From NCBI GenBank assembly GCA_030145275.1, contig JAQYVV010000001.1, positions 275,269 to 339,268 of the forward strand: a DNA stretch of 64,000 nt, written 5' to 3'. Of this stretch, positions 6,696 to 63,853 are shown in pieces (positions within the stretch are counted from its first letter, which is position 1; every line of letters begins with the position of its first letter). Source of the DNA: Desulfurivibrionaceae bacterium. Lineage in GTDB: Bacteria; Desulfobacterota; Desulfobulbia; Desulfobulbales; VMSU01. Below the pieces are notes generated by a model, which was given only the letters and a program-made list of their open reading frames with translations, ran no database searches and was not told where the DNA came from. The position numbers and the translations under genes are program-made.

Positions 6696-7700
<1,005 letters not shown>

Positions 7701-7702
7701 TT

Positions 7703-8872
7703 ATGAAAACTATCCCATACGGTCATCAAAACATAAACAAAGATGATATTCAGGCTGTTGTTGAGGTGCTGAAGTCTGATTTCATAACGCAAGGGCCGAT
7801 TGTCCCCGCATTTGAAGCTGCGGTGGGTAGCTACTGTGGCACACAACATGCGATAGCAGTCAATAGTGCCACCAGCGCCCTCCACATAGCATGCCTGGCC
7901 TTAGGCGTTGGCAAAGGCGATGTGGTCTGGACGACCCCGATTACATTCGTGGCTAGTGCCAATTGCGCCTTGTATTGTGGTGCACAGGTTGATTTTGTGG
8001 ATATCGATTCGCGCACCTATAATCTTAGCGTGGAGCGACTGACAGAAAAACTGGCTCAGGCAGAAAAAGTCGGAAAACTACCCAAGGTTGTGATTCTTGT
8101 GCATATGTGCGGACAACCCTGCGATATGGCAGCTATTCACGCACTTCGTCTGAGATACGGTTTCAAGATCATTGAAGATGCAGCCCACGCCATCGGCGGG
8201 CGCTACAAAGACGAACCTGTCGGCAACTGCCACTACAGTGACATCACCGTGTTCAGCTTTCATCCGGTCAAGATAATCACGGCGGGAGAAGGCGGTATGG
8301 CACTGACAAACGATGCGCAATTGGCAAAGCAGATGCGGTGTCTTCGAAGTCATGGACTCACCAGCGATGTGGAAGATATGCACCCACGGCCACCGAAAGA
8401 AATCTGGAACTACCAGCAAATAGGCTTGGGTTTTAACTACCGCATGACCGATATACTTGCTGCGTTAGGTTTGAGCCAAATGCAACGATTGGACGAATTC
8501 GTTTCCAAGAGGCACATAATTGCAAAACGATATGATCAGTTGCTCTTGAGCCTGCCAGTGGTTACGCCATATCAATATGCGGATAGCTATTCCAGCTTTC
8601 ATCTCTACGTTATACGTTTGCAACTTGATGAAATCAATATAAAGCAACGACAAGTATATGAAGCTCTTCGGGCAGCAGGTATTCATGTGAATCTGCACTA
8701 CATTCCGGTGTACCGCCAGCCGTATTATTCCAATATGGGTTTCGAGACAGGTTATTGCCCAGAAGCTGAACAATTTTATGCTGAAGCTATTAGCATACCG
8801 ATGTTTACGGTGCTAACTGAAGTACAGCAAGACCATGTTGTGACCGCTTTAAAGGAGGCAACCAGCTTATGA
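7703..8872 (+). CDS. pseC: UDP-4-amino-4,6-dideoxy-N-acetyl-beta-L-altrosamine transaminase, PseC
   Basis: A 389-residue PLP-dependent DegT/DnrJ/EryC1-type aminotransferase. The pyridoxal lysine is in FSFHPVKIITAGEGG at residue 190; the cofactor-binding D is in IIEDAAHAIGG. It aminates C4 of the PseB product using glutamate. It starts two bases after the pseB stop and overlaps pseF by four bases, so the genes are translationally coupled. Length and motif spacing match PseC. Confidence 0.93.
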   Translation: MKTIPYGHQNINKDDIQAVVEVLKSDFITQGPIVPAFEAAVGSYCGTQHAIAVNSATSALHIACLALGVGKGDVVWTTPITFVASANCALYCGAQVDFVDIDSRTYNLSVERLTEKLAQAEKVGKLPKVVILVHMCGQPCDMAAIHALRLRYGFKIIEDAAHAIGGRYKDEPVGNCHYSDITVFSFHPVKIITAGEGGMALTNDAQLAKQMRCLRSHGLTSDVEDMHPRPPKEIWNYQQIGLGFNYRMTDILAALGLSQMQRLDEFVSKRHIIAKRYDQLLLSLPVVTPYQYADSYSSFHLYVIRLQLDEINIKQRQVYEALRAAGIHVNLHYIPVYRQPYYSNMGFETGYCPEAEQFYAEAISIPMFTVLTEVQQDHVVTALKEATSL

Positions 8873-9564
8873 AAATTGCTGTAATTCCCGCTCGGGGCGG
8901 CAGCAAACGCATCCAGCGCAAAAACATTAAAATGTTTGCGGGCAAACCGATAATTGCCTGGTCCATTGAAGCAGCTTTAGGTAGTGGCTTATTTGATCGG
9001 ATTATTGTTTCTACCGATGATCAAGAAATCGCCACTGTAGCTGAAAAATACGGTGCAGAAATACCTTTTCTGCGCCCCACAGAGCTAGCTGATGACTTTA
9101 CTGGAACCAACAGCGTCGTGAAACATGTTATCAAATGGTTTCATGAAAACAATTTCCCTGTTGAATTTGCGTGCTGTATATACGCAACGGCTCCTTTCAT
9201 TCAAATAAACTACCTACGTCAAGGCCTTGAACTACTGATTGAAAGTGGAAAATCATTTGCCTTTTCAGTCTCAATATTCACATCTTCGGTCCAGCGTGCT
9301 CTTTCGATCAATAGTGAGGGCTTCATTGAACCACTTTATCCGGAATACATTCAAACCAGAACACAGGACCTCCAGGAAGCATATCATGATGCCGGACAAT
9401 TTTACTGGGGTCGTTCCGAGGCATTTTTGAATGATGTGGTCACTTTTTCACAAGCATCTATACCTATTATCCTTCCCAGTTATTTGGCACAGGATATAGA
9501 TACCCTTGAGGATTGGCATCGGGCCGAATTAATTTATAAGGCGATAAATAAGCAAGATTTTTAG
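8869..9564 (+). CDS. pseF: Pseudaminic acid cytidylyltransferase, PseF
   Basis: A 231-residue CMP-sugar synthetase with the nucleotide-binding N-terminus PARGGSKRIQRKNIKMFAGKP and the acylneuraminate cytidylyltransferase motifs STDDQEIA and DAGQFYWG. It activates pseudaminic acid with CTP. It overlaps the pseC stop (ATGA) and sits between pseC and the pse-type methylase, which supports PseF over NeuA or KdsB. A second, divergent cytidylyltransferase lies at 22119. Confidence 0.92.
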   Translation: MKIAVIPARGGSKRIQRKNIKMFAGKPIIAWSIEAALGSGLFDRIIVSTDDQEIATVAEKYGAEIPFLRPTELADDFTGTNSVVKHVIKWFHENNFPVEFACCIYATAPFIQINYLRQGLELLIESGKSFAFSVSIFTSSVQRALSINSEGFIEPLYPEYIQTRTQDLQEAYHDAGQFYWGRSEAFLNDVVTFSQASIPIILPSYLAQDIDTLEDWHRAELIYKAINKQDF

Positions 9565-9600
9565 TATGAAATAACCAAATCTTGTTTAATGGGGAAAATA

Positions 9601-10251
9601 ATGACTAAGGTTTTTCAGACTCAGCAGGAAAAGTTTTGGGCAGGAGAATTTGGCGATGAATACTGTGAACGTAATGTCGGTCAGCAAAGGATCGCAAGTA
9701 GAATTGCGTTATATTCAAAAATTTTGGCACAATGTAATAATGTTAGTTCGGTAATTGAATTTGGCGCAAATATTGGACTTAATTTGATGGCTATCCGATC
9801 CTTGCTTCCCGACACTGAACTGGCAGCTATTGAAATAAACAAAAGCGCTGTTGAGCATATTCAAAATTGGGGGGGGACGTCGGAAATATATAACACTTCA
9901 ATATTAGATTTCACTACGGAGCGATCTTGGGATATTGCTTTAATAAAAGGAGTGTTAATTCACATAAATCCGGAGATGTTACCACAAGTGTACGAGTCAC
10001 TTTATCGAGCGAGCAGACACTATATTTTACTGGCAGAATACTATAATCCAACACCAGTTGAAGTTGATTATCGTGGCCATTCAGGCAAATTGTTCAAGCG
10101 TGATTTCGCAGGTGAAATAATGGATATATATCCTGATCTGCGTTTGGTTGACTATGGGTTTGTGTGGCGTAGAGACCCTGTGTTTCCTCAAGACGATTGT
10201 ACATGGTTTCTACTTGAAAAATCAATTTGTGAATGTCGTATTCGTATTTAA
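9601..10251 (+). CDS. Pseudaminic acid biosynthesis-associated methylase
   Basis: A SAM-dependent methyltransferase. The N-terminus TKVFQTQQEKFWAGEFGDEY and SAM motif VIEFGANIGLNL match the small methylase family regularly found in pseudaminic/legionaminic clusters. The track starts at 9589, but the GGGGA in that stretch makes a ribosome binding site for the ATG at 9601, so a 216-residue protein is preferred. It would methylate a nonulosonic acid or its precursor; the exact position is unknown. It lies 37 bases after pseF in the same operon. Confidence 0.82.
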   Translation: MTKVFQTQQEKFWAGEFGDEYCERNVGQQRIASRIALYSKILAQCNNVSSVIEFGANIGLNLMAIRSLLPDTELAAIEINKSAVEHIQNWGGTSEIYNTSILDFTTERSWDIALIKGVLIHINPEMLPQVYESLYRASRHYILLAEYYNPTPVEVDYRGHSGKLFKRDFAGEIMDIYPDLRLVDYGFVWRRDPVFPQDDCTWFLLEKSICECRIRI

Positions 10252-10349: not shown

Positions 10350-10988
10350 ATGAATAAAAACAACGAATCAAATATTTGCATTTTGGATTATGGCAGTGGC
10401 AATACTAAGTCTGTGTTCAACCTACTAAGTACTTTGAGTGCCAGTGTTAAAATTTCAAATAGTGAAGAGGATATTATAAATGCAACCCATTTAGTGTTGC
10501 CGGGAGTTGGTGCATTTGGTGGGGCAATGGGGAAAATAAGGAGAAAGATTCCAGTCGACCTGCTCGAAAATGAGGTTTTATTTAAACAAAAACCATTCCT
10601 TGGAATATGCGTCGGGATGCAGGTTCTAGCCTCAAAAGGTTATGAACACGGCGAATGTGAGGGGCTAGGCTGGATCGCAGGCAAAACAACACGTCTGGAA
10701 ACAGATATAAACCCCTTGCCGCATATAGGTTGGAATAACTTGGAAATTATAAACCCTAGTCCTATTTTGGATGGTATTGACAACGAATATGATTTCTACT
10801 TCCTGCATAGTTATGCGTTCCGGCCTGAAGAAGAAAATTGCGTTGTTGCCAAAACTGAATATGGGGAGAATTTTGTCTCTGTAATTCAGCAAAAAAACAT
10901 TTTTGGCACCCAATTTCATCCGGAGAAGAGTCAAACCACTGGGAAATTACTAATTTACAATTTTTTGAAATTCAATGAAAAAGAATAG
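10350..10988 (+). CDS. hisH: HisH-like glutamine amidotransferase for sugar amidination
   Basis: A 212-residue class-I glutaminase resembling imidazole glycerol-phosphate synthase subunit HisH: YGSGNTKSV at the N-terminus, nucleophile cysteine in LGICVGMQ and the His/Glu of FHPEKS. No other histidine-pathway genes are nearby. In glycan loci such pairs (HisH2/HisF2 with WbpG in Pseudomonas aeruginosa O antigen) supply ammonia to a sugar amidotransferase. It overlaps the HisF-like gene by 14 bases and precedes the PseA-like gene, so that role is inferred here. Confidence 0.85.
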   Translation: MNKNNESNICILDYGSGNTKSVFNLLSTLSASVKISNSEEDIINATHLVLPGVGAFGGAMGKIRRKIPVDLLENEVLFKQKPFLGICVGMQVLASKGYEHGECEGLGWIAGKTTRLETDINPLPHIGWNNLEIINPSPILDGIDNEYDFYFLHSYAFRPEEENCVVAKTEYGENFVSVIQQKNIFGTQFHPEKSQTTGKLLIYNFLKFNEKE

Positions 10989-11784
10989 GTTGATTCCAGT
11001 TTTATTGCTTAAAGATGGTTGGTTAGTTCAGAGCAAAGGATTTTCCAGACATCAAAATCTCGGCAATCCGACTATTGCGGTAAAAAGGCTTAGTGAATGG
11101 GCAGCAGATGAATTGATTTATTTGGATATTTCTTCTGGAGAGGCAACTTATGATTTACGGCGGGATGATTTGAAACACCCCAATAGACACAATTTTCTCG
11201 ATATAATTGAGGATGTTTCAAAGTGCACCTTTATGCCAATAACTGTTGGAGGAAATATCCGATCATTAAACGATATTGAGGATCGACTGAAACGGGGAGC
11301 TGACAAAATATCAATTAATACAAAACCGCTTAATGATAAATCATTTATCACTGAAGCAGCTAAAGAATTCGGAGCACAATGCATCGTTGTATCAATAGAT
11401 ACAAAAGTTATTAATGAAAAGCATATCGTGATGAAACACGGTGGCAAGGAGGTAACAGATTTTACTGCCATTGAATGGGCGAAAATTTCCGAAGATATGG
11501 GGGCTGGCGAAATATTGCTGAATTCTGTTGATCGTGATGGTAAGCGAACTGGTTATGATATTCCATTGCTCACATTGTTATCCGACACCGTCAAAATCCC
11601 GGTTATTGCCCTCGGCGGAGTTGGTGAGTGGCAGGATTTTGAAGATGCGTTATCAGAAACTAATGTTGATGCAGTTGCTGCAGCAAACATATTTCATTAT
11701 ACGGACCAAAGCGTTTATTTAGCTAAAAAGCATTTGTTTGATAGAGGTTGCAACGTTAGACGGCCATTTATAACTAATTTTTAA
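10975..11784 (+). CDS. hisF: HisF-like ammonia-channel partner for sugar amidination
   Basis: A 269-residue TIM-barrel protein of the HisF type: RLIPVLLLKDGWLVQ at strand 1, TVGGNIRS, ILLNSVDRDGKRTGYD and IALGGVGEW at the phosphate-binding strands. In HisH/HisF complexes ammonia passes through the HisF barrel. Several positions differ from true HisF (LLLKDGWLV in place of LDV-type strand 1), which fits a paralog specialised for O-antigen or nonulosonate amidination. It is coupled to hisH by overlap and is followed 17 bases later by the amidotransferase. Confidence 0.83.
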   Translation: MKKNRLIPVLLLKDGWLVQSKGFSRHQNLGNPTIAVKRLSEWAADELIYLDISSGEATYDLRRDDLKHPNRHNFLDIIEDVSKCTFMPITVGGNIRSLNDIEDRLKRGADKISINTKPLNDKSFITEAAKEFGAQCIVVSIDTKVINEKHIVMKHGGKEVTDFTAIEWAKISEDMGAGEILLNSVDRDGKRTGYDIPLLTLLSDTVKIPVIALGGVGEWQDFEDALSETNVDAVAAANIFHYTDQSVYLAKKHLFDRGCNVRRPFITNF

Positions 11785-11801
11785 AAGGCGCAAAATATCC
11801 C

Positions 11802-13001
11802 ATGATCCATAAAATGACTTACTGCAAAAAATGTGTTTACCCCCAGATTTCAGTCAATTTATACGTTGATGATGATGGAGTGTGTTCCGCCTGTGAATCA
11901 GCTCAACAATTTGAAGAATTATCCCAAGATTTTTGGGATATAAGAAAAAGAAAATTTGAAAAAATAATTGAAGATACTTTGAGAAACAACACCTCTAATT
12001 ATGATTGCTTAATTCCAGTTAGTGGTGGCAAAGATAGCTATTATCAAGCGCATGTAATTGTAAAAGAATATGGCCTGAAACCACTTTTAATGACCTATCA
12101 TGGTAATAATTATCTGCCTGAGGGTGATTACAATCGTGACAGAATGAGGCACGTTTTTGATGCAGATCATATTGTTTACGGCCCAAGTATAGAGGTACTC
12201 AAAAAATTAAACCGCATTTGTTTTAAAAAAATGGGCGATATGAACTGGCAGAATCACTGCGGTATTTTTACCGCGCCTATTAAACTAGCAACCATGTTCA
12301 ATATACCATTAATGATTTGGGGAGAAACCGCTTGGGATATATCTGGCATGTTTGATCCTGACGATTTTGTTGAGTTCAGCGCTCGAGTGAGACATGAGCA
12401 TGGTTTACGCGGTTTTGAATGGTATGACCTGTTAGATGATCCTACAGACAATCTATCTGAAAAGGATTTGATTTGGGCAAAATACCCGACGGATGAGGAG
12501 ATACTCAGGGTTGGGGTCAAGGGGTTGTATATAGGTAATTTTTTCAAATGGGCTCCTAATGAAAATACAGAAAAGATGAAAGAACTTTATGGTTGGCAAC
12601 CAGCGGCTAAACCTTTCGAACGAACCTATCGCACCATGTCAAATCTGGATGACCGATATGAAAACGGCGTTCATGATTTGTTAAAGTTTATAAAATTTGG
12701 TTATGGTCGCGCCAGTGATCACGCTTCAAAAGATATCCGGGCTAATCTAATGTCCAGAGAAGATGGCATAAAGATGGTAAGGAAATATGACCATGTCGTC
12801 TCCAGTGATCTATATTATTGGCTTGATTATGTGGAGATGAGCGAGGATGAGTTTTGGCGAACCGCAGACACCTTCAGAGACTCCAGAGTCTGGTGGATAA
12901 AAGACGGTGAATGGTGGAAAGATAATATATGGGGTGAAGCATCACCGTACGGTAAAGTGTACTTACCAATTGAACAACAAAAAAATTACTTGATTGACTA
13001 G
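11802..13001 (+). CDS. N-acetyl sugar amidotransferase, PseA/WbpG type (copy 1)
   Basis: A 399-residue protein with an N-terminal cysteine cluster (CKKCVYPQ, CSACE) and the PP-loop ATP-binding motif PVSGGKDSY near residue 70. This is the PseA/WbpG family that converts an N-acetyl group to acetamidino using ATP and ammonia. An AAAAGGCG stretch lies about twelve bases before the ATG; the ATG at 11814 is a possible alternative. It directly follows the HisH/HisF-like pair. A second, clearly different paralog is encoded at 15288, which is unusual with a single ammonia-donor pair. Confidence 0.88.
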   Translation: MIHKMTYCKKCVYPQISVNLYVDDDGVCSACESAQQFEELSQDFWDIRKRKFEKIIEDTLRNNTSNYDCLIPVSGGKDSYYQAHVIVKEYGLKPLLMTYHGNNYLPEGDYNRDRMRHVFDADHIVYGPSIEVLKKLNRICFKKMGDMNWQNHCGIFTAPIKLATMFNIPLMIWGETAWDISGMFDPDDFVEFSARVRHEHGLRGFEWYDLLDDPTDNLSEKDLIWAKYPTDEEILRVGVKGLYIGNFFKWAPNENTEKMKELYGWQPAAKPFERTYRTMSNLDDRYENGVHDLLKFIKFGYGRASDHASKDIRANLMSREDGIKMVRKYDHVVSSDLYYWLDYVEMSEDEFWRTADTFRDSRVWWIKDGEWWKDNIWGEASPYGKVYLPIEQQKNYLID

Positions 13002-13003
13002 AA

Positions 13004-14026
13004 ATGACTAAAAAAGAAATATTCTCTGAGAATTCAATCAGGCCCACTGACTTAGTGCCTGGGCAATTAGAGGCAATGAGAAAAGATATTGATTGGTTGA
13101 TTGGCAACAAGGAAAATTTCGTTGATGTCCATTGTCCTGCATGCAATGACAGATCATCCACTAAATTGTTTGAAAAATATCACCTGAATTATGTCGAGTG
13201 TGAAAAATGCAAAACATTATACATAAGTCCCAGACCAACACCTGAAATTTTAGAGAAATTTTATAAAAAATCTGAAAATTATTCATATTGGAATAAATAC
13301 ATTTTTCCTGCATCTGAAAATGCGCGAAAAGAGAACCTTTTTGTCCCCAGAGTAGATAAGGTTATTAAACTTTGTGATAAATATAATGTGGATAAAAAGG
13401 CCATACTTGAAATAGGTGCTGGCTTCGGCACTTTCTGTGAAGTTATGCAATCGACAGGTCGATTTAGTCGTGTTGTTGGAATTGAACCAACTCCTGATTT
13501 AGCAAAAACGTGTAGGACTAAAGGCATAGAAATAATTGAAAAGCCGATTGAGAAAGTACGATTCTCTGAGAATGAATTATTTGATGTTGTTGTGAATTTC
13601 GAAGTAATAGAACACTTGTTTTCACCGAACAATTTTATTGTTCAGTGTAAAAGGATGCTACGCAAAAATGGGTTGCTTATAGTGACGTGCCCAAACGGAC
13701 AAGGTTTTGATATCATAACATTAAAGGAGATGAGTAAAACAGTTGATCATGAACACTTAAATTACTTTAACCCGGAGTCACTTAAATTGTTAATTGAGAA
13801 AACTGGATTTGAAGTTCTGGAAATTTCAACTCCGGGGAAATTAGACGCTGAATTAGTTAGGAATGAAATATTAGCTGGAAGTTTTGATGTGTCTGGACAA
13901 CCTTTTCTCAAAAGGGTTTTAGTGGACGGATGGGATTCTCATGGGGAAAAATTTCAACAATTTATATCCACAAATCTTCTCTCATCAAATATGTGGATTA
14001 TTGCACAAAATAAACAGGAAATATAA
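13004..14026 (+). CDS. Class I SAM-dependent methyltransferase with N-terminal zinc ribbon
   Basis: A 340-residue protein. CPAC and CEKC, spaced about 30 residues apart near residues 45-75, look like a zinc ribbon. The SAM-binding motif ILEIGAGFGTFCEVM and the post-motif VVNFEVIEHLF follow. Proteins of this layout are common in O-antigen and flagellin-glycan clusters as sugar methyltransferases. It starts two bases after the amidotransferase and its stop overlaps the next ATG (TAATG), so it is part of a tightly coupled cassette. The target sugar is unknown. Confidence 0.8.
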   Translation: MTKKEIFSENSIRPTDLVPGQLEAMRKDIDWLIGNKENFVDVHCPACNDRSSTKLFEKYHLNYVECEKCKTLYISPRPTPEILEKFYKKSENYSYWNKYIFPASENARKENLFVPRVDKVIKLCDKYNVDKKAILEIGAGFGTFCEVMQSTGRFSRVVGIEPTPDLAKTCRTKGIEIIEKPIEKVRFSENELFDVVVNFEVIEHLFSPNNFIVQCKRMLRKNGLLIVTCPNGQGFDIITLKEMSKTVDHEHLNYFNPESLKLLIEKTGFEVLEISTPGKLDAELVRNEILAGSFDVSGQPFLKRVLVDGWDSHGEKFQQFISTNLLSSNMWIIAQNKQEI

Positions 14027-15252
14027 TGAGCAATAAAAACATCAACGAACTTTGGGTTAACTGGGAAGAATTAATACGATTAGCATCAGGGAAGCGCATC
14101 ATTTTTTTTGGCAGGGGGGAGTGGTTAGAAAAATCATTGCCCTACTTAGGTCGTAAAGCTGATTATGTAGTCGACAATAATGAATATGAACAAGGACAGA
14201 TTGAACATGAATTAAATATAAAAAACCCTAATGTCCTAAAAGATGAAACTTTTGACGATATACTTGTAATAATTACAACAACTGGCTTCCTGGAAGTCAC
14301 AGCTCAACTGGTTGAATTTGGTTTGCTCCCAGGAAGAAATTTTATTATTTCTCCCTCCTTAAAGAATTTTCATTCAATCCAGCGGATTAACCAACAAAAC
14401 TGCACTTTGTTGTTTACTTGCGCAGATAGGCCGCAAAACGATCCTTTAAAGGGGGGCGGCTTTTATTCTTACGAATTGCAAAGAAGACAGTTGAAAAAAA
14501 TATTTAGCGGCGTATGCCACGGATTTATCTCTGGGAATGATTTAATCTATCTAGTTGATGACTTGATAGGTGTCAGGGTTCTAAATAAAGATCTGACAGA
14601 AATCACAAATTTTGATTTACCAGCAAAATCAAGACCTCATGGGATTGCATTTAGTAAAGAACATAAAAAAATATTTATAAATTTCGCAGGGAGAGACTCA
14701 ATAGGTGTCTACGATGCGAATACCTACGAAAAGACCAATGAAGTTTTTATCTCAAATAAATGGGAAGCAACCTCTATCCCACAACACCACTTAAATGATT
14801 TATATGCCCACGGAGATAGTTTGTATGTTTCTATGTTTTCATTAAGTGGGAATTGGAAACGAGGTGTTTATGATGGGGGGATATTGGAAGTCGATATAGG
14901 GACATTGGAAATAAAAGAGCCAGTTGTTACTAATTTATGGATGCCGCATAGTCCTGTAATGCTAAACGGGAATCTTTGTTATTGCGACTCAATGCGTGGG
15001 AGAGTCCATAACACTACATGGAAGCCAATCACCCAATTTAGTGGTTTTGTCCGTGGTATAGCCCACGATGGAGAGTTTTACTATGTCGGTCAGAGTATGC
15101 ATCGGTATGTTGACAGGCTGGAACATGCAACGAACAACATATCTTTGGATACCGGAATTTATATTGTGGATGAACACAATAAGACTACTAAGTTCTTTTC
15201 AATTCATCAATTGACAGATATCAAAGCAATTGGCTTGATGTCTGCTTCCTGA
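14026..15252 (+). CDS. Unknown protein: Rossmann-like N-terminus plus beta-propeller-like C-terminus
   Basis: A 408-residue protein not assigned to a known function. Residues 20-110 (RIIFFGRGEWLEKSLPYLG, then DDILVIITTTGF) look like a Rossmann-type nucleotide- or sugar-binding fold. Residues 125-400 form repeated beta blades (SRPHGIAFS, DGGILEVDIGTLEI, FVRGIAHDGEFYYVG, DTGIYIVDE), resembling DUF4915/TIGR03032-like propellers. No signal peptide is present, so it is probably cytoplasmic. It lies exactly between the zinc-ribbon methyltransferase and the second amidotransferase and overlaps the former by one base, implying a role in the same sugar-modification cassette. Confidence 0.6.
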   Translation: MSNKNINELWVNWEELIRLASGKRIIFFGRGEWLEKSLPYLGRKADYVVDNNEYEQGQIEHELNIKNPNVLKDETFDDILVIITTTGFLEVTAQLVEFGLLPGRNFIISPSLKNFHSIQRINQQNCTLLFTCADRPQNDPLKGGGFYSYELQRRQLKKIFSGVCHGFISGNDLIYLVDDLIGVRVLNKDLTEITNFDLPAKSRPHGIAFSKEHKKIFINFAGRDSIGVYDANTYEKTNEVFISNKWEATSIPQHHLNDLYAHGDSLYVSMFSLSGNWKRGVYDGGILEVDIGTLEIKEPVVTNLWMPHSPVMLNGNLCYCDSMRGRVHNTTWKPITQFSGFVRGIAHDGEFYYVGQSMHRYVDRLEHATNNISLDTGIYIVDEHNKTTKFFSIHQLTDIKAIGLMSAS

Positions 15253-15287
15253 TTAATCTTGTCTGCAACTAATTTGGGGTAATAAAT

Positions 15288-16388
15288 ATGTTCGAAATGT
15301 GCAAAAAATGCCTTATGCCAAATACTCGTCCGGAAACCCCCTTTGAAGGAGGGGGTTGTCAAGCTTGCAAAAATTTTGACACGAGAAAGCATGTGAACTG
15401 GGAAGAAAGATTAGATGAATTTAAAAGTATATGCAACCGGCACAAGCAAAATGACGGGAACTGGGACTGCTTCCTGCCCGTCAGTGGAGGTAAAGACAGT
15501 CATGCTATGGTTTACTGGGTAAAAGAGGTCATGGGAATGAATCCTTTATTAATCACTACAGGAGATCCATTTACCACAACGGAAGCAGGTTCAAAAAACT
15601 ATTTTAACTTAGGTAATACTTTTAATTGCGACCAGATTTTGGGTACAGTTAGTCCTGACTTGGCACGTCGGCTTATAAGAGCCGGATTTGAAGAATTCTT
15701 AGATCCATTACGTTTTATCGAACAAGTTTTAAACACAATCCCTTTTAAAATAGGTTCAAAGCTTGGGATTTCATTAAGTTTTAAAGGTGAATCCCCATAT
15801 ATTTATGGGGCTGTCAAAGAAGACAAGTCAGCATTGGAACAAATTCTTTATAGAACAACTCAATATGATGCAGATTACTGGATTAAACGCGGGGCAAAAA
15901 AAGAAGAATTAAACACCATTAATCCCCTCTCCGATGAAGAGTTAAGTAGTTTGAATCCGGAATGCTATTATATGAGCTATTTTGTGCCTTGGAGCAGCGT
16001 CTCAAACCGTAGGATAGCTCAAAGATATGGTTTTGTAGACATTACCCATGAATGGAAAAGAGAAGGATGTGTGGAGGATTTTGAGCAGATTGATTCTATG
16101 GCCTACTTGACACATCTTTGGCTAAAATATCCCAAATTCGGTTTCCAGAGAGCTTCGGATATTGTTTCTCGAAGAATTAGAGAGGGCAATCTCTCTATTG
16201 AAGAGGGGAAAAATCTTATTATGAAATACGACCACAAATTAGATCAGCTGGCGTTAAAAGATTTTAATGATTTTCTTGGATATTCTACAAAAGAATTCTG
16301 GGATGTCGTCGAAGGATTCTGGAACCCAAAAATATTCAGAAAAGATGGTATTGCCTGGGAAATGAAGGATTCACGCTTTCCTGTTTGA
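15288..16388 (+). CDS. N-acetyl sugar amidotransferase, PseA/WbpG type (copy 2)
   Basis: A 366-residue paralog of the gene at 11802. CKKCLMPNTRPE and CQACKNF form the N-terminal cysteine cluster, and LPVSGGKDSHAMVYW is the PP-loop ATP-binding motif. The two paralogs share layout but only scattered identity (different spacing after the PP loop, different C-termini), so this is not a recent duplication. It probably installs a second amidino group or works on a different substrate, sharing the HisH/HisF ammonia source. It is followed 49 bases later by the pseG fusion. Confidence 0.86.
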   Translation: MFEMCKKCLMPNTRPETPFEGGGCQACKNFDTRKHVNWEERLDEFKSICNRHKQNDGNWDCFLPVSGGKDSHAMVYWVKEVMGMNPLLITTGDPFTTTEAGSKNYFNLGNTFNCDQILGTVSPDLARRLIRAGFEEFLDPLRFIEQVLNTIPFKIGSKLGISLSFKGESPYIYGAVKEDKSALEQILYRTTQYDADYWIKRGAKKEELNTINPLSDEELSSLNPECYYMSYFVPWSSVSNRRIAQRYGFVDITHEWKREGCVEDFEQIDSMAYLTHLWLKYPKFGFQRASDIVSRRIREGNLSIEEGKNLIMKYDHKLDQLALKDFNDFLGYSTKEFWDVVEGFWNPKIFRKDGIAWEMKDSRFPV

Positions 16389-16437: not shown

Positions 16438-17982
16438 ATGAAATCGTACCATTCGAGACAGAAGAAAATTGTTTTCAGAGTCGATTCGTCTCAAAACATT
16501 GGCAGTGGCCATGTTATGAGGTGTTTGACGCTTGCTGATGCATTAAAAGAATTTAATTCAGAGGTCATATTCATTTGTCGTGATCTTACCGGGAATATAA
16601 TTGATTTTATCGAAGCAAGTGGGTACAAAGTCTCACGATTGCAGACAAACTCCTCATCAAGAACGAAGCAAGACTTGAAGCAACATTCATCTTGGCTCGG
16701 TAGCGATTGGGAGCAGGATGCTCAAGAAACAATAAATATACTAAAAAATCTTAACGTCAAACCAAAATTTCTTATTGTCGATCATTATGCTATTGACCAC
16801 AACTGGGAAGTATTAACACGTTCTGTTGTTGAAAAAATAATGGTAATTGATGACCTTGCGGATCGGCGTCATGATTGTGATCTTCTTCTCGATCAGAACT
16901 TTTATGTAAATCCTGAACAAAGATATAAAGGACTAGTTCCTGATAATTGCATTAAATTGCTTGGACCCAGTTACGCCCTATTGCGTCCCGAATTTAGAGA
17001 TAAATATCCCTATAAAGAAAAGAAACGAAGCAATAATAAAAATATATTTGTCTTTTTTGGCGGAATTGATCCCAATAATGAAACGGCAAAAACCCTCAAA
17101 GCTATATTTTCACTAAAAAGACACAAACTCACAGCCGATATTGTAGTAGGTGAAAAAAACCAACACAAGTCACTGATTAAAAAGCTTTGCAAAGATCATT
17201 CTAATATTACTCTTCATTCCCATATAGACAACATGGCTGAGTTGATGTCTCATTGTCATGTAGCTGTGGGAGCAGGTGGTACCACAACGTGGGAAAGATT
17301 CTGTTTAGGCATACCTTCTATAGTTATCAGCATTGCAGCCAATCAGAAGGAAAATGCCAAGTATTGTTGTCGATGTGGTTGTCATATGTACCTGGGAGAT
17401 TCTAATGAGGTTTCTAGTTTCGACATTAGTGCTGCTATAAATACCGCTTTTCAATCACCGACTCTATTACAACATATTTCCGAACAAGCTAAAAAAATGG
17501 TTGATGGCAAAGGAATTTTTCGGGTAATTCCATTTTTGCTTCCTCCCAGTATTTCCCTAAGGCCCGCTGTCTTAAGTGACTGTCAAGACATATACAACTG
17601 GAGAAATGCTAAGGAGACACGTCTTCGAACATTTGACAAAGAAACAATCCCACTTGATGTTCATCAACGTTGGTTTGAACAATGCCTAGTAGATGAGAAT
17701 CGTATTCTGTTAATCGGGGAATGCGATGATAAACCGTTAGGGGTTTTGCGATTCGACTTGGAAAATCAGGAAGCCCTAGTGTCTGTTTATCTAGTGCCAG
17801 GCCAAAAAACAGCGGGGACAGGGTTTCAATTGATTCATTCTGGTAGTAATTGGTTACGAAAAAACTGTCCAAATATAAAAATAATCGAAGCTAAGATACT
17901 TAATACAAATATTGCATCTAAAAAAGCTTTTCAAAAAGCTGGATATTCACTTTGCAATTTGACTTTTTCTAAAGAGTTGTAA
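16438..17982 (+). CDS. pseG: PseG nucleotide-sugar hydrolase fused to GNAT acetyltransferase (PseH-like)
   Basis: A 514-residue two-domain protein. Residues 10-345 are a GT-B-like PseG hydrolase (FRVDSSQNIGSGHVMRCLTLA, FFGGIDPNNET, AVGAGGTTTWERFCLGIPS) that releases UDP from the 2,4-diacetamido-altrose intermediate. Residues 365-514 (ISLRPAVLSDCQDIYNWRN, ending KKAFQKAGY) are a GNAT N-acetyltransferase like PseH, which acetylates the 4-amino group just before. Stand-alone PseG is about 275-360 residues, so this is a real fusion of consecutive steps. The upstream GGGTAAATT is a weak ribosome binding site. It abuts pseI. Confidence 0.88.
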   Translation: MKSYHSRQKKIVFRVDSSQNIGSGHVMRCLTLADALKEFNSEVIFICRDLTGNIIDFIEASGYKVSRLQTNSSSRTKQDLKQHSSWLGSDWEQDAQETINILKNLNVKPKFLIVDHYAIDHNWEVLTRSVVEKIMVIDDLADRRHDCDLLLDQNFYVNPEQRYKGLVPDNCIKLLGPSYALLRPEFRDKYPYKEKKRSNNKNIFVFFGGIDPNNETAKTLKAIFSLKRHKLTADIVVGEKNQHKSLIKKLCKDHSNITLHSHIDNMAELMSHCHVAVGAGGTTTWERFCLGIPSIVISIAANQKENAKYCCRCGCHMYLGDSNEVSSFDISAAINTAFQSPTLLQHISEQAKKMVDGKGIFRVIPFLLPPSISLRPAVLSDCQDIYNWRNAKETRLRTFDKETIPLDVHQRWFEQCLVDENRILLIGECDDKPLGVLRFDLENQEALVSVYLVPGQKTAGTGFQLIHSGSNWLRKNCPNIKIIEAKILNTNIASKKAFQKAGYSLCNLTFSKEL

Positions 17983-17983
17983 A

Positions 17984-19051
17984 ATGACTGGTAATACTAT
18001 CCACCAAGTTCAGATAGGATCTAGAAGTATTGGCCCTGAATCTCCTCCTTTTGTAATAGCAGAGATGTCTGGAAACCATAATCAATCACTTGAGAGAGCA
18101 CTGGAGATTGTTGACGCTGCGGCAGCTTCTGGTGTACATGCTCTAAAGTTACAAACGTACACAGCCGAGACAATGACCCTTGATATTTCTGAGGGCGAAT
18201 TCTTGATAGAAGACTCAGGGAGTATCTGGCATGGCAGATCGCTTTATGAGCTCTACAATGAAGCTCATACTCCAAGAGAGTGGCATAAATCGATTTTCAG
18301 CCGTTGTAAAGATTTAGGTATGATCTGTTTTAGCACACCTTTTGATGCAACGGCTGTTGATTTTTTGGAAACCCTTGATGTCCCTTGCTACAAGATTGCT
18401 TCGTTTGAGAATACTGACCTACCGCTGATTCGTCGTGTGGCAGCTACCGGTAAACCATTGATCATTTCCACAGGAATGGCCACGGTTGACGAGCTAGATG
18501 AGACAGTGAGTGCTGCACGGGAAGCAGGTTGCAATAATCTAATTCTTCTTAAGTGCACCAGCACTTACCCAGCCATTGCAGAGAACAGCAACATCCTAAC
18601 TATTCCGCATCTGCGCGAGCTCTTTGATTGCGAAGTAGGCCTATCAGACCACACCATGGGCATTGGCGTATCGTTGGCTAGCGTTGCGCTAGGTGCCACT
18701 GTCATCGAGAAGCACTTTTCCCTCAACCGCGCTAATGGTGGTGTGGACAGTACTTTTTCAATGGAACCAGCCGAAATGTCCCAACTGGTGATGGAGACTG
18801 AACGAGTATGGCAAGCGCTTGGGAAAGTAAGTTATGGGCCGACTGCGGTCGAGGAAGAATCCCTTCAATTCCGCCGTTCATTGTACATAGTGCAAGACCT
18901 TAAGGCGGGGGAGGTGCTGTCGCGAGAGAATGTGCGCGCGATTCGTCCTGGGTTAGGGTTGCCGACTAAATATCTGGGCCAGATATTGGGAAAAATATTG
19001 AAGCAGGATGTAAAACGTGGCACAGCGTTGGGATGGGAATTGTTGGCATAA
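17984..19051 (+). CDS. pseI: Pseudaminic acid synthase, PseI
   Basis: A 355-residue NeuB-family enzyme. The TIM barrel opens with VIAEMSGNHNQSLERALEIV and ALKLQTYTAETMTLD; metal and PEP binding is around GLSDHTMG and VIEKHF. The C-terminal SAF/antifreeze-like domain begins at RRSLYIVQDLKAGEVL. It condenses the 6-deoxy-altrose sugar with phosphoenolpyruvate to give pseudaminic acid. EMSGNHNQ is typical of PseI. It begins one base after the pseG fusion and ends the densely packed part of the operon. Confidence 0.93.
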   Translation: MTGNTIHQVQIGSRSIGPESPPFVIAEMSGNHNQSLERALEIVDAAAASGVHALKLQTYTAETMTLDISEGEFLIEDSGSIWHGRSLYELYNEAHTPREWHKSIFSRCKDLGMICFSTPFDATAVDFLETLDVPCYKIASFENTDLPLIRRVAATGKPLIISTGMATVDELDETVSAAREAGCNNLILLKCTSTYPAIAENSNILTIPHLRELFDCEVGLSDHTMGIGVSLASVALGATVIEKHFSLNRANGGVDSTFSMEPAEMSQLVMETERVWQALGKVSYGPTAVEEESLQFRRSLYIVQDLKAGEVLSRENVRAIRPGLGLPTKYLGQILGKILKQDVKRGTALGWELLA

Positions 19052-22118: not shown

Positions 22119-22805
22119 ATGAGAAAAATTACGGCGTTACTTCCGATGAAGGCTCATTCCGAGCGGGTACCTGAAAAAAACATCAAGCTGTTTGCCGGTA
22201 AACCATTATTCCAAAGAATTGCAGAAGTTTTGGAAACCTCGGTCCACATTGACCGCATCTTCATTAACACCGACAGCGAGGAGATTGCCAAGAATGCCGG
22301 CAAACACTTCTCAAAAGTCGAGATTGTCGTACGTCCGCCTGAGCTCAGAGGAGATTTCGTCCCCATGAATGATATTATCAGGCACGATATCCAGATTTCT
22401 AAATCTGAACATTTTCTCCAAACCCACAGCACCAACCCTCTCTTGGGTTTGAAAACCATAGAAACAGCCATTGAAAAATATTTTAACGGACTGTCCACAT
22501 ATGACTCACTGTTTTCGGTCACCAAAGTACAAAATCGTTTTTACTGGGAGTCTGGGGAACCTATCAACCACAACCCAGGAGAGTTGTTACGGACCCAGGA
22601 CCTTGAACCGATCTATGAAGAAAATTCCAATATCTATCTGTTTTCAGCCGCCTCCTTTGCTGCGTCCGGAAATAACAGAATAGGACTAAGACCGCAGATG
22701 TTTAGCATAGATAAATTGGAGTCTATTGATATCGATGACGAAGCGGACTGGCATTTTGCCGAAAGCCTCTATCATTGGATGCAAGGGGCAGCAAAGGGGC
22801 AATAA
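22119..22805 (+). CDS. Acylneuraminate cytidylyltransferase family protein (second CMP-sugar synthetase)
   Basis: A 228-residue NeuA/PseF-family enzyme: LLPMKAHSERVPEKNIKLFAGKP binds CTP, and INTDSEEIA and ENSNIYLF occupy the usual positions. It is clearly different from PseF at 8869: MKAHSERVPEKN replaces ARGGSKRIQRKN. GAGGGATAGAGGAA precedes the ATG. It activates a 2-keto-3-deoxy sugar acid with CMP. No second PEP-dependent synthase accompanies it. An HpcH-type pyruvate aldolase lies 1.4 kb downstream, which raises the question of how its substrate is made. Confidence 0.85.
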   Translation: MRKITALLPMKAHSERVPEKNIKLFAGKPLFQRIAEVLETSVHIDRIFINTDSEEIAKNAGKHFSKVEIVVRPPELRGDFVPMNDIIRHDIQISKSEHFLQTHSTNPLLGLKTIETAIEKYFNGLSTYDSLFSVTKVQNRFYWESGEPINHNPGELLRTQDLEPIYEENSNIYLFSAASFAASGNNRIGLRPQMFSIDKLESIDIDDEADWHFAESLYHWMQGAAKGQ

Positions 22806-28554: not shown

Positions 28555-30277
28555 AAGGGTGTTGAAAAGTAACCGGCCAAAGGCTGGAAACAAATATCCA
28601 ATCGGCCAAATAGCCGTTTAAAGTTTTTGTTTTTTTGTCACTGCTAGCGATTAATATTACTAACTTGCGGGTGTGTTTTTGCACTTTTAAGCACCCTAAT
28701 TTGAGGGCAGCGCTATTTTACAGCAAGTTATTTACGCCAGCATATACATATACAAAAAATCACAATTGTAGTCTGTGTTTTATCTTGAAACTATAAAATT
28801 GTCAGTTTTTTATCGGTCAAGCAGCATTAGCAAAGAGAGTCTGTTGTTGCCTTTGATTGGTCGATTTCTTTTTCCTTGAACCGGCCATTTTTATCAGTAT
28901 TACAGCTATCGAGCTTAACGTGCACCTGGCCATGGTTGCACGCTGGCTCCGTACTCTTACAGTCTCAAGACCTGTTTGTTTTTTCAACAGGTTAAAAGGT
29001 CTTTCACAATTTTTGCGGATATCATGAGCCTGTTGGATCATTTCTGTTGCAAAGGGTATCCGCTGAAAAAGGCCTCTATCCATAGGGATAAAGCGGTATT
29101 GAGGACATGTCTGGGAGCAGGCACATTCTCCTGTTGTCGCACCACATTTATACTCGTGCTCCTGGCCTTTGTACCCGACATGCTGCATGGGGATGGTACA
29201 TTCATCATGGCAAAAAACTGCTCCAGTATCGCCATTGACATTTTCAGGCAAGGCCACCTTTGCAGACGGTGGTGTCGTAACAATGGTGCCAGTCTTTCTG
29301 TAAAGAGAACCATCTTTGTCATGGTAGGCTTCGTCAGCGGTAATGAGCTTTACGTCAATCCCCATTGCCTGGGCTAAACTAACCAGGAATGGAAGAAAAT
29401 GACTGTCATGATGATTGGCAGGGGCCAAGAGGGAAACAATAGGGTAGCTCTGTCCTGTTTGGGCATTGATAGCAGTAAGAGTATGGAGACGGTAACCAAT
29501 GACATATGCGGATTTATCCCGCTTATTACCATGCTTACCGCAATCACAGTCGAGGTCGTTGTAGATCCGTATCTTTTTACCTTTAATCGTGATAGTGGCC
29601 AAGGGAACCCTACAGTCATTGGCCAGTTCCGTTGAGTCAACTGCATGAAGAACACAATCGCCAAGAAGTCCTGACTGGTTAAAATGATGCAGGATATAGA
29701 CAAGCAAGTTGACCTGCTGCGAGAAAGAAAGATTGGATCTGAATTTACTCAGTTGACTATGATCGATCTTGGTCTTTTTATGCAATGCCATCGTAGGATA
29801 TAATACGGTTGATTATTCCGTCATCGATTAATCTATCAACAAAGGCAAGCTCCTCATCTTTGATATAGATGGAGGAACGATTATAAGTGCTGAACTTTAT
29901 GGTTTTATTGTTATTCGACCATGTCGATATATCGAGCCATTTTATCAAGTTTGATGATCCCAGCCGGAAGTTGTGCTTCTATGCCAAGAAGATCTTCTTT
30001 GGGGGCCTCGACGACTTGGGTGAAATCATATTCGGCTACTGTTTCAGCCAATATCTTCTTGGCTATATCTCTCTTTTGTTTTCTTGCCAATCTTTTCCAG
30101 TTTGGAAACTGTTTTTTTAGTTGTTTTCGTATGCTTAACTTGATACTTTTGTGGTGCATCACAGCCTCTTTTTTTGATGTTTATTCTTTTGATAGGGAAT
30201 CAACACCATCATAGAGGCTTTTTTTGTTTTAACTAAACGTTTTTATTGACTAAAACACTATTTACTTCAACACCTTT
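28555..30277 (-). mobile_element. Decayed 1.7-kb DDE-type insertion sequence
   Basis: The ends are short inverted repeats (AAGGGTGTTGAA at 28555 and its partial complement TTCAACACCTTT ending at 30277), bordered by TACAT on both sides (28550-28554 and 30278-30282), a probable 5-bp target duplication. The transposase reads leftward but is split over three frames. The element lies between an FkbM-like gene and a glycosyltransferase inside the glycan locus. The 244 bases left of the transposase hold only element sequence. Size and a single large ORF fit the IS1182/IS5-like DDE groups; the exact family is not certain. Confidence 0.75.
28817..30162 (-). pseudogene. DDE transposase, broken by two frameshifts
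   Basis: Three pieces in three frames form one transposase. The N-terminus is at 30162-29911 (MMHHKSIKLSIRKQLKK...), a short middle piece (FSTYNRSSIYIKDEELAFVD) lies in another frame at about 29910-29800, and the catalytic part is at 29791-28817. The last piece has HAVDSTELANDC (first Asp), LITADEAYHD (second Asp) and CERPFNLLKKQTGLE (Glu region), with a cysteine-rich insert (CGATTGECACSQTC). With two frame changes the enzyme is inactive unless both are sequencing errors. Confidence 0.8.
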
Positions 30278-61711: not shown

Positions 61712-63853
61712 TTGTGTGGCGCCTTGAATTATAAAATATTATCTTATCTTAGATCTTTTTACTCCAACAGACTATTCATCCCTTTAGTTCTTTTTCTTAT
61801 TATGCTCGCCGGATTTCTTGTCCGCTTTGATGACCTGAAATCCTGGGAAGAAAGACCAAACCATACCTTTTTTCAGGGCAAACCTCTTCTTACCACCTTT
61901 GATGGCTATTTCTATCTAAATCTTTCCCGAGATCTTCTCCGGGGCGAGTATGATACTGTTGACGAGAAGCAGGTTGTGCCTGCCGGTCGACCCAGACCAT
62001 ATCCTCCCCCCCTTCTCTCAGTTTTAGGTGCGGTTACCACTAAAATAACAGGCGCATCTCTTGACATGGTTGGAACTGTGTTACCTGCAGTGTTAGGGGT
62101 GTTATTGGCTTTGCCCCTCTACCTTCTGGGAAACTTTTTTGGTGGCAGGGCCATGGGGGTCACAGCGGCTCTATCCAGTGTCTTTGTTCCATATTATGTC
62201 TATCGCAGTAACGTTGGTTGGTATGATACCGACTGTATGAATGTGACCTTTGCCACCCTTATTGTCTATTTTACTCTGCAGTTTGCAATATGTGCCGGGC
62301 GGACTAGATATTTATATGCTGTAGCCTCCCTTTGCAGTTATTTGCTTTTTCTCTGGTGGTGGGATCAGGCTTTTGCGGTGGTCAGCGTGATTTTCTTTGC
62401 TACCTCATTGGTCGCCTTGCTCTTTTTTTATCGTCCAGGGAAAAAAGAGGGATATATCTTTTATGGAGCAGTGGCTGGACTTATTTTTCTTCTGCTTTTT
62501 TGGCAGGGCCTTGAACTTCCCCAAAAAATATACAGCACTATTGTCGGGAAATTTGACTATATTTACACCTCCAAGCAAATTGCAGGTATTTTCCCAAACC
62601 AGGCCATTACGGTGTCAGAGCAGGTGCGGCCAGGATTTAATGAAATTGTCTCAAAATCAACGGGTAGTATGCCTATATTCTTTACTGCCTGCGTTGGACT
62701 CTTGTATCTCTTTTATCGCAGGCCCAAAGATAGTCTTTTCCTTATAGTACCACTTTTGCTGGCCTCCCTATCTTTTCTTTTTGCCAAACGGTTTCTCATC
62801 TTTTTAAATCCAATCATAGCCCTTGGCCTGGGTAGTTTTATTGGCGCAATTTGGTATTTACGAAAAAGATATATAATCGCTGCTTATATTGCACCTGTTC
62901 TTGCACTCGTTCTTGTCTGGCCTAACTTGTCAGATAATTTGGCAAGGGTGCACTGGCCTAAAGAACCAGCGGCAATTGTGGCAGGAATGGCCGCTGCGGA
63001 AAAACATACTCCTGATGATGCAGTTGTCTGGGCCTGGTGGGATCATGGTTATAATATGAGATATTGGTCTGATCGCGGCGTCATAGCGGATGGAAGTTAT
63101 CATAGCGGCGAAATTTCCATGTATAATGCCTTGCCCTTGACGGTAAACAGTGAACAGCTGTCGGCAAATTTCATGCAATTTTATATTAATCGCGGCTCAA
63201 AAGGGATGGGGCAAGTATATCGGGCCTTTGACAACCAGCATGGTGAGGCCATGCAATTTCTGAAGAATGTATTAGCTGCTGGGCCGGAAAAGGCAGAAGA
63301 AATAATGAAAGATACCGGGGTTTTTCAAGATATTGAACGTTCTGATTCTGCTCTGGTAAATTCTGTTGAGTTTTATTTCCCCCCAAATAAAAAGCCTGTT
63401 TACCTTTTCCTGGATTGGCGTCTGACAAAAACCTCATATTGGTGGTTCTGGTTTGGCAGTTGGGATTTTGATAAACGAGACGGGATTAATCCTCGTTTTG
63501 AAATTTTTCAAGATGTCGGTATTCGAAAAAATCAGATATTAGGGAGGAGCAGTAGGGGCGGGTTTCGGGCTGATCTTAATACAGGAATGGTGAATTTAGG
63601 AAAGAATAGTATCCCAATGGCAAGTATCTCTTTTTTTGAACCTGATGGAAAGGTGAAGGTGGCAAAGTATAAGAGCAAGGGGGCTGGGCTGGAGGTTTCA
63701 TCAGCAACCCGATCTGCAGCTTTGCTTGATTACGCCATAGGAGAATCGGTCTTTAATCGCCTTTATTTAAGGCAACAATATGATCATAAGTATTTTGATC
63801 TTGTTGCTGAGGATTTTCCAGCCTGGCAGCTATGGAAAGTAAAGGCTGATTAG
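61712..63853 (+). CDS. pglB: STT3/PglB-type oligosaccharyltransferase
   Basis: A 713-residue membrane enzyme with about 11-13 transmembrane helices in residues 1-430 and a C-terminal periplasmic domain. GWYDTDCMNVTFA fits the DxD-like metal/lipid-pyrophosphate motif (DTDMxNV in PglB), and WAWWDHGYNMRYWSDR is the WWDxG acceptor-sequon motif, with His in place of Tyr. It would transfer a lipid-linked glycan onto asparagines of secreted proteins. The start is TTG; other starts within the first ten codons are possible. It ends at TAG inside the octamer beside the last element. Confidence 0.85.
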   Translation: MCGALNYKILSYLRSFYSNRLFIPLVLFLIMLAGFLVRFDDLKSWEERPNHTFFQGKPLLTTFDGYFYLNLSRDLLRGEYDTVDEKQVVPAGRPRPYPPPLLSVLGAVTTKITGASLDMVGTVLPAVLGVLLALPLYLLGNFFGGRAMGVTAALSSVFVPYYVYRSNVGWYDTDCMNVTFATLIVYFTLQFAICAGRTRYLYAVASLCSYLLFLWWWDQAFAVVSVIFFATSLVALLFFYRPGKKEGYIFYGAVAGLIFLLLFWQGLELPQKIYSTIVGKFDYIYTSKQIAGIFPNQAITVSEQVRPGFNEIVSKSTGSMPIFFTACVGLLYLFYRRPKDSLFLIVPLLLASLSFLFAKRFLIFLNPIIALGLGSFIGAIWYLRKRYIIAAYIAPVLALVLVWPNLSDNLARVHWPKEPAAIVAGMAAAEKHTPDDAVVWAWWDHGYNMRYWSDRGVIADGSYHSGEISMYNALPLTVNSEQLSANFMQFYINRGSKGMGQVYRAFDNQHGEAMQFLKNVLAAGPEKAEEIMKDTGVFQDIERSDSALVNSVEFYFPPNKKPVYLFLDWRLTKTSYWWFWFGSWDFDKRDGINPRFEIFQDVGIRKNQILGRSSRGGFRADLNTGMVNLGKNSIPMASISFFEPDGKVKVAKYKSKGAGLEVSSATRSAALLDYAIGESVFNRLYLRQQYDHKYFDLVAEDFPAWQLWKVKAD

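Follow-up and report, generated by a model that had tools for sequence, protein, structure and literature searches.

Two diverged N-acetyl sugar amidotransferases in one pseudaminic acid operon, one of them from a clade mostly found without HisH/HisF

Results

The 64,000-nucleotide stretch of DNA analysed here (the window) comes from a Desulfurivibrionaceae bacterium and is part of an assembly of 3.09 Mb that is 84% complete. Between positions 6717 and 19051 it carries twelve genes that run from PseB to PseI, all on the + strand and with intergenic gaps of −14 to +98 bp, and this operon for pseudaminic acid (Pse), a sialic-acid-like sugar, contains two genes for N-acetyl sugar amidotransferases (NASAT1 and NASAT2) together with one HisH/HisF-like pair (Table 1). 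Comparison with their relatives places NASAT1 among enzymes linked to HisF, while NASAT2 falls in a separate clade whose loci mostly lack the pair. The Pse pathway set is present, with five equivalogs above cut-off and PseH found only as a fused domain below its own. In the whole assembly there is one true NeuB-family match (PF03102), which is PseI, a second match being a sub-threshold fragment. In the part from HisH to NASAT2 (10350-16388) the gaps are −14 to +35 bp, and the zinc-ribbon methyltransferase and the propeller protein are indeed tightly packed between the two NASATs, as the first-pass annotation of this DNA had described.

Both NASATs exceed the TIGR03573 cut-off of 203.2 bits and contain the CxxC...CxxC and SGGKDS motifs, and with 26% identity between them they are as clearly diverged as that annotation had held. 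In NASAT2 the zinc cysteines are C5, C8, C24, and C27 and the PP-loop spans S66-S71, with equivalents in NASAT1. An alignment of 74 members shows that NASAT2 keeps the invariants of the family (Cys4, SGGKDS, P86, G101, N104, G167-E168, W235, K283, G285, R298, D315, F337, and W357) as well as residues of its own clade (H72, S230, E255-W256-x-R258, Y273, P282, D319, N346, and F350). Its predicted model has a predicted local distance difference test score (pLDDT) of 92.8 and a predicted template modelling (TM) score (pTM) of 0.91, and its best match in the PDB, by far, is the NASAT of Legionella pneumophila (LpNASAT, 8WEX, chain 8wex_B; TM 0.88/0.83), the weaker matches including NH3-dependent NAD synthetases (1xng, 3p52). 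An altered active site in one of the two enzymes, which would have spoken against two amidino-type groups, is not what the predicted protein displays: the retention of all invariant residues and the confident model led us to reject NASAT2 as an inactive second enzyme. NASAT1 and NASAT2 are apparently two distinct amidotransferases, functional as judged by their sequences. No third NASAT was found in a search of the same genome. As a composition check for horizontal import, the GC fractions of the two genes are nearly equal (0.387 for NASAT1 and 0.386 for NASAT2).

The HisH of the window keeps the glutaminase residues, namely the nucleophile Cys in GICVGMQ and the His and Glu of FHPE (alignment to 4gud). 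Its HisF scores below the equivalog cut-offs of WbuZ (TIGR03572, 251.3 versus 299.7 bits), of AglZ/HisF2 (NF038364, 202 versus 310), and of hisF itself (234 versus 294.6). In the HisF of the histidine pathway, Asp11 and Asp130 are essential. In the window D130 is kept and D11 is replaced by Leu, a loss that rules out a histidine-pathway pair and fits a putative ammonia conduit rather than a cyclase. Across NASAT loci, HisF falls into two groups, one that has lost D11, as in the window, and one that has kept it, often with Asp130 changed to Glu. A second amidino-type HisF was not found in the genome, so the first-pass annotation was right in counting one such pair. A histidine-type HisF was likewise not found in this assembly, where the only match besides the window HisF is a weak HisA-like one (C59); this absence is probably due to assembly gaps. 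In two same-phylum genomes (G038 and G320) a further HisF match lies in a frame of 526-532 aa, possibly a fused HisHF, and in Kaistella jeonii (G552, locus L287) an amidino-type HisF extends over two frames and is apparently frameshifted.

For the phylogeny, 174 full-length NASATs with their neighbourhoods were reduced to 73 at <68% identity and used for a maximum-likelihood tree in quick mode, with supports from the Shimodaira-Hasegawa-like approximate likelihood ratio test (SH-aLRT) only; each row was labelled by the presence of HisF within 6 kb. NASAT1, which starts 17 bp after HisF, belongs to a clade with an adjoining HisF in all eight non-redundant rows, found mainly in Pse clusters with HisH/HisF (L067, L070, L072, L074, and L083). 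In its nearest relative (L065) HisF and NASAT form a single polypeptide, and the order HisH, HisF-NASAT fusion, and homologue of the zinc-ribbon methyltransferase occurs in L065, L079, L201, L251, and L252. Such fusions (L065:12033-14105, L079:6709-8760, L201:1520, L251:7051, L252:8317, and L220:604) are ready constructs for structural work on ammonia transfer. A second HisF-linked clade, with HisF in 19 of 20 rows, contains LpNASAT. An LxGxxxxDL loop is conserved in the HisF-linked NASATs only. By its sequence and position, NASAT1 would be of the usual glutamine-coupled, HisHF-linked type.

NASAT2 belongs to a third, separate clade of 19 rows (SH-aLRT 100), of which 13 have no HisF, three are undecided, and three have one (the window, L097, and L099). 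In these last three, HisF lies beside a different NASAT, nearer than the clade member, and in L097 the counterpart of NASAT2 is on the opposite strand. To extend the clade, NASAT2 and its two closest relatives in the phylum served as queries against 84,980 species genomes; the best 80 of 438 encoded relatives were kept and, with the window and the two phylum relatives, make up 83 loci. The hosts of these best 80 of 438 include Omnitrophota, Methanosarcina, Altiarchaeales, Lokiarchaeota, Patescibacteria, Bacteroides, Lachnospiraceae, and Oscillospiraceae, among others. Any HisF is present in 7 of the 83 loci, the window counted. Both classes of NASAT and a HisF are in view in six loci, again including the window, and in all six HisF is nearer to the NASAT of the other class. 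The recurring neighbours are genes of nonulosonic acid (NulO) synthesis, comprising PseB/LegB (58 loci), NeuB (53), the cytidine monophosphate (CMP)-transferase (49), PseC/LegC (48), a CBS-domain nucleotidyltransferase of the LegX/PtmE kind (43), and a NeuC-like epimerase (42). Apart from HisH in the five loci where HisF and a second NASAT are present too, the 83 neighbourhoods contain no recurring glutaminase, and another glutaminase beside NASAT2 was rejected on this ground. The nearest relatives of NASAT2 (L085, L087, L089-L095, and L098) are in Pse clusters without the pair.

All HisA/HisF matches were typed in 31 genomes that have a gene of the NASAT2 clade and no nearby pair, and a dedicated HisF was absent from 23 of them. 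Fifteen of these have a histidine-type HisF only, usually adjoining HisA; they include the isolates Bacteroides fragilis S82, B. gallinarum DSM 18171, Butyricimonas synergistica DSM 23225, Oceanimonas marisflavi, and Anaerovorax odorimutans DSM 5092, as well as G462 and G279, two genomes of 100% completeness that host the nearest phylum relatives of NASAT2. In the other eight (G528, G530, G534, G535, G541, G544, G545, and G547) no HisF of any type was found, and two of these are separate metagenome-assembled genomes (MAGs) of Gastranaerophilales. A dedicated HisF is encoded elsewhere in five genomes (G527, G531, G533, G543, and G552), and three further genomes are ambiguous (G539, G540, and G548). 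The new part of this work is that the NASAT2 clade is apparently a NulO-linked NASAT subfamily independent of HisH/HisF.

In a sample of 395 genomes of the phylum, 43 encode a NASAT; two such genes within ~12.5 kb occur in six of them (G000, which is the genome of the window, G178, G259, G281, G320, and G462). The statement that known loci normally have one such enzyme is thus only mostly right, with these six and the PseA and PtmG of Campylobacter jejuni, which are a known precedent for paired NASATs with one HisH/HisF pair, as exceptions. One pair is flanked by two NASATs in L066 and in the Pse cluster L067, while L197 has two tandem NASATs, a homologue of the propeller protein, HisF, and HisH. 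True sharing of the pair is more plausible in these three loci, whose NASATs are all outside the HisHF-free clade. The alignment in the LpNASAT paper (PMC10607449) contains two Campylobacter NASATs and three of V. vulnificus, of which two have consecutive accessions.

The TIGR03587 methylase adjoins NASATs of either class. Outside the window genome, it occurs together with a NASAT in 7 of 10 genomes of the phylum sample, versus 42 of 394 overall (p = 9e-6), and this co-occurrence suggests methylation of amidinated Pse, similar to that of amidinated legionaminic acid (Leg) by PtmH. The probable target of the window protein is the amidine nitrogen or a different nitrogen of Pse. The propeller protein has homologues beside NASAT and HisHF (L197:6533-7843 and L239:11094-12329) that are 33% identical, the three genomes, that of the window included, being distant from one another. 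Its model is propeller-like (pLDDT 70), with an N-terminal alpha/beta domain, and the motifs QHHLND and SxSGNWKxGxYDGG are strongly conserved. It is a candidate accessory protein of NASAT loci, and nothing on TIGR03032/DUF4915 was found in the literature searched.

Downstream of the Pse cluster there are many glycosyltransferase and sugar genes. A second cytidylyltransferase (22119-22805) has a distant likeness to PseF (91.6 bits, below cut-off), and no second NulO synthase was found in the assembly. Two further open reading frames were recognised by eye, with no search made: a transposase-like one downstream of the cluster (28817-29791) and an STT3-like oligosaccharyltransferase close to the end of the window (61712-63853).

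Table 1. Genes of the Pse operon in the window, with the family matches on which their assignment is based.
Gene product	Position	Strand	Match
PseB, UDP-GlcNAc 4,6-dehydratase (inverting)	6717..7700	+	TIGR03589 539 bits, cut-off 407.75
PseC aminotransferase	7703..8872	+	TIGR03588 542 bits, cut-off 423.5
PseF, CMP-Pse synthetase	8869..9564	+	TIGR03584 332.6 bits, cut-off 205.7
Pse-associated methylase	9589..10251	+	TIGR03587 299 bits, cut-off 112
HisH-like glutaminase	10350..10988	+	TIGR01855 230 bits
HisF-like predicted ammonia conduit	10975..11784	+	WbuZ 251 bits, hisF 234 bits, both below cut-off
NASAT1, N-acetyl sugar amidotransferase (PseA-type)	11802..13001	+	TIGR03573 306.8 bits
Zinc-ribbon S-adenosylmethionine (SAM) methyltransferase	13004..14026	+	Methyltransf_23 71.8 bits
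Two-domain alpha/beta + beta-propeller protein	14026..15252	+	DUF4915/TIGR03032-like
NASAT2, N-acetyl sugar amidotransferase	15288..16388	+	TIGR03573 243 bits
PseG hydrolase fused to PseH-like acetyltransferase	16438..17982	+	TIGR03590 328.6 bits; PseH domain 43 bits, cut-off 93.1
PseI, Pse synthase	17984..19051	+	TIGR03586 497.8 bits, cut-off 340

Discussion

The class and clade of the two enzymes, their intact motifs, and the absence of HisF from the loci and genomes of the relatives of NASAT2 make it moderately likely that the operon combines two NASAT classes with separate ammonia routes, NASAT1 through HisHF and NASAT2 without it, and that both act on Pse. In this scheme, HisH would hydrolyse glutamine and the D11-less HisF-like barrel would hand the ammonia to NASAT1, in which the N-acetyl oxygen would be activated by ATP at the PP-loop and swapped for NH to give an acetamidino group. 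NASAT2 would perform the same chemistry without HisH/HisF, most likely with free ammonium, as does NH3-dependent NAD synthetase. Given that the assembly has one NulO synthase, both enzymes probably act on Pse or CMP-Pse, where they could modify different N-acetyl groups (C5 and C7) to give a bis-amidino Pse or a mixture, and the TIGR03587 methylase and the zinc-ribbon methyltransferase may then methylate amidino or other groups. The earlier suggestion of two amidino-type groups or forms is thus plausible, with two distinct NASATs in one NulO operon, but the single synthase favours both groups on Pse over separately modified sugars. A Pse with two amidino groups, or two alternative forms of Pse, is our leading guess at the product and is unproven; no paper naming a bis-amidino NulO was found in the literature searched. 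More tentatively still, NASAT2 may represent an undescribed class of glutaminase-free NulO amidotransferases that, paired with a glutamine-coupled NASAT, makes both nitrogens of Pse acetamidino.

It is conceivable but rather doubtful that the two enzymes have different substrates within one glycan, so that NASAT2 would modify Pse and NASAT1 a second N-acetyl sugar, or vice versa. The sugar genes downstream, including the second cytidylyltransferase, agree with such a division, as does L079, where a HisF-NASAT fusion and a methyltransferase are present with no NulO gene in view, and WbpG and WbuX are known to act on hexosamines (PMC10607449). Against this, the NASAT1 clade is found mainly in Pse clusters, and in the window both NASAT genes lie between PseF and PseG/PseI.

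The first-pass annotation had proposed that the one HisH/HisF pair is shared, and this would require the two NASATs to dock on HisF in turn. The single dedicated pair in the genome, the presence of both NASATs in one operon, and the similar arrangements in C. jejuni, L066, L067, and L197 speak for it, but the clade of NASAT2 is normally HisHF-free in both locus and genome, and HisF goes with the other class wherever both occur. Moreover, NASAT1 abuts HisF and has relatives fused to it, whereas three genes separate NASAT2 from HisF. For these reasons, we regard sharing in the window as unlikely.

Borrowing of the histidine-pathway HisH/HisF, or of another cellular glutaminase, by NASAT2 is more improbable: it would suit the 15 of 31 genomes with a histidine-type HisF, but not the eight that lack any HisF, the two Gastranaerophilales MAGs among them, nor the absence of a recurring glutaminase from the neighbourhoods. 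Redundancy or decay, with NASAT2 as a second copy that was acquired horizontally, is dispensable, and acts at the same position as NASAT1, is equally improbable, given that NASAT2 is full length with its invariant and clade residues kept and a confident model, even if a same-order genome (G038) has an operon with NASAT1 alone and PseGH directly after it (L083), and Pse clusters that contain the TIGR03587 methylase and just one of the two classes are known for either class.

Several points nevertheless weigh against two separate ammonia routes that converge on Pse. Most of the HisF-less genomes are MAGs, where absence may be due to incompleteness, although gaps cannot explain the isolates; in the isolates, in turn, the histidine-pathway HisHF could still help the enzyme of the NASAT2 clade. 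The 100%-complete G462 (C4, C10, and C11) has four NASATs and no dedicated HisF, indicating that lack of the partner is not wholly confined to the NASAT2 clade. The window itself contains a HisHF pair by which both NASATs could be served, and the NASAT2 clade is defined by sequence and gene context. The assignment to C5 and C7 is inferred indirectly, and the assembly, at 84% completeness, may lack a second NulO synthase that the genome has.

Flagella, capsules, and O-antigens change in charge when they carry acetamidino NulOs, and both phage proteins and host Siglecs recognise these sugars. Current annotation presumes that their synthesis needs HisH/HisF, yet a large clade from Pse and Leg clusters of Bacteroides, gut Clostridia, archaea, and candidate phyla radiation (CPR) bacteria appears not to. 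Amidino sugars may therefore be far commoner than searches for the WbpG-HisH2-HisF2 trio suggest. With both classes in one operon, the window offers a direct test case for the ammonia source and for doubly amidinated Pse.

Among known systems, NH3-dependent NAD synthetase is a PP-loop enzyme that uses free ammonia and so provides an analogy for the ammonia source of NASAT2, but it is of another family and has another substrate. WbpG/HisH2/HisF2 of P. aeruginosa O5 and WbuX of E. coli O145 combine, as proposed for NASAT1, a glutaminase, a HisF-like conduit, and a NASAT that acts on an N-acetyl sugar; they differ in having a single NASAT with the pair and hexosamine substrates (the ManNAc3N series and FucNAc). 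LpNASAT resembles NASAT2 in its fold, its Zn-binding Cys4, and its SGGKDS PP-loop (PMC10607449), but its clade is apart from those of NASAT1 and NASAT2, and it is 78% identical to the other NASAT of L099. The closest parallel is in C. jejuni, where PseA (Cj1316) leads to amidino Pse, PtmG (Cj1324) to amidino Leg, which is methylated by PtmH (Cj1325), and a single HisH/HisF pair (Cj1315c/Cj1314c) is encoded beside pseA (PMC3766260, PMC4195440, PMC12102941). As in the window, one flagellar-glycan locus contains two amidotransferases with NulO substrates, one HisH/HisF pair, and a methyltransferase that follows the amidino step. However, in C. jejuni one NASAT is for Pse and the other for Leg, each of these NulOs having its own synthase (PMC7371886), whereas the two NASATs of the window share one operon with one synthase.

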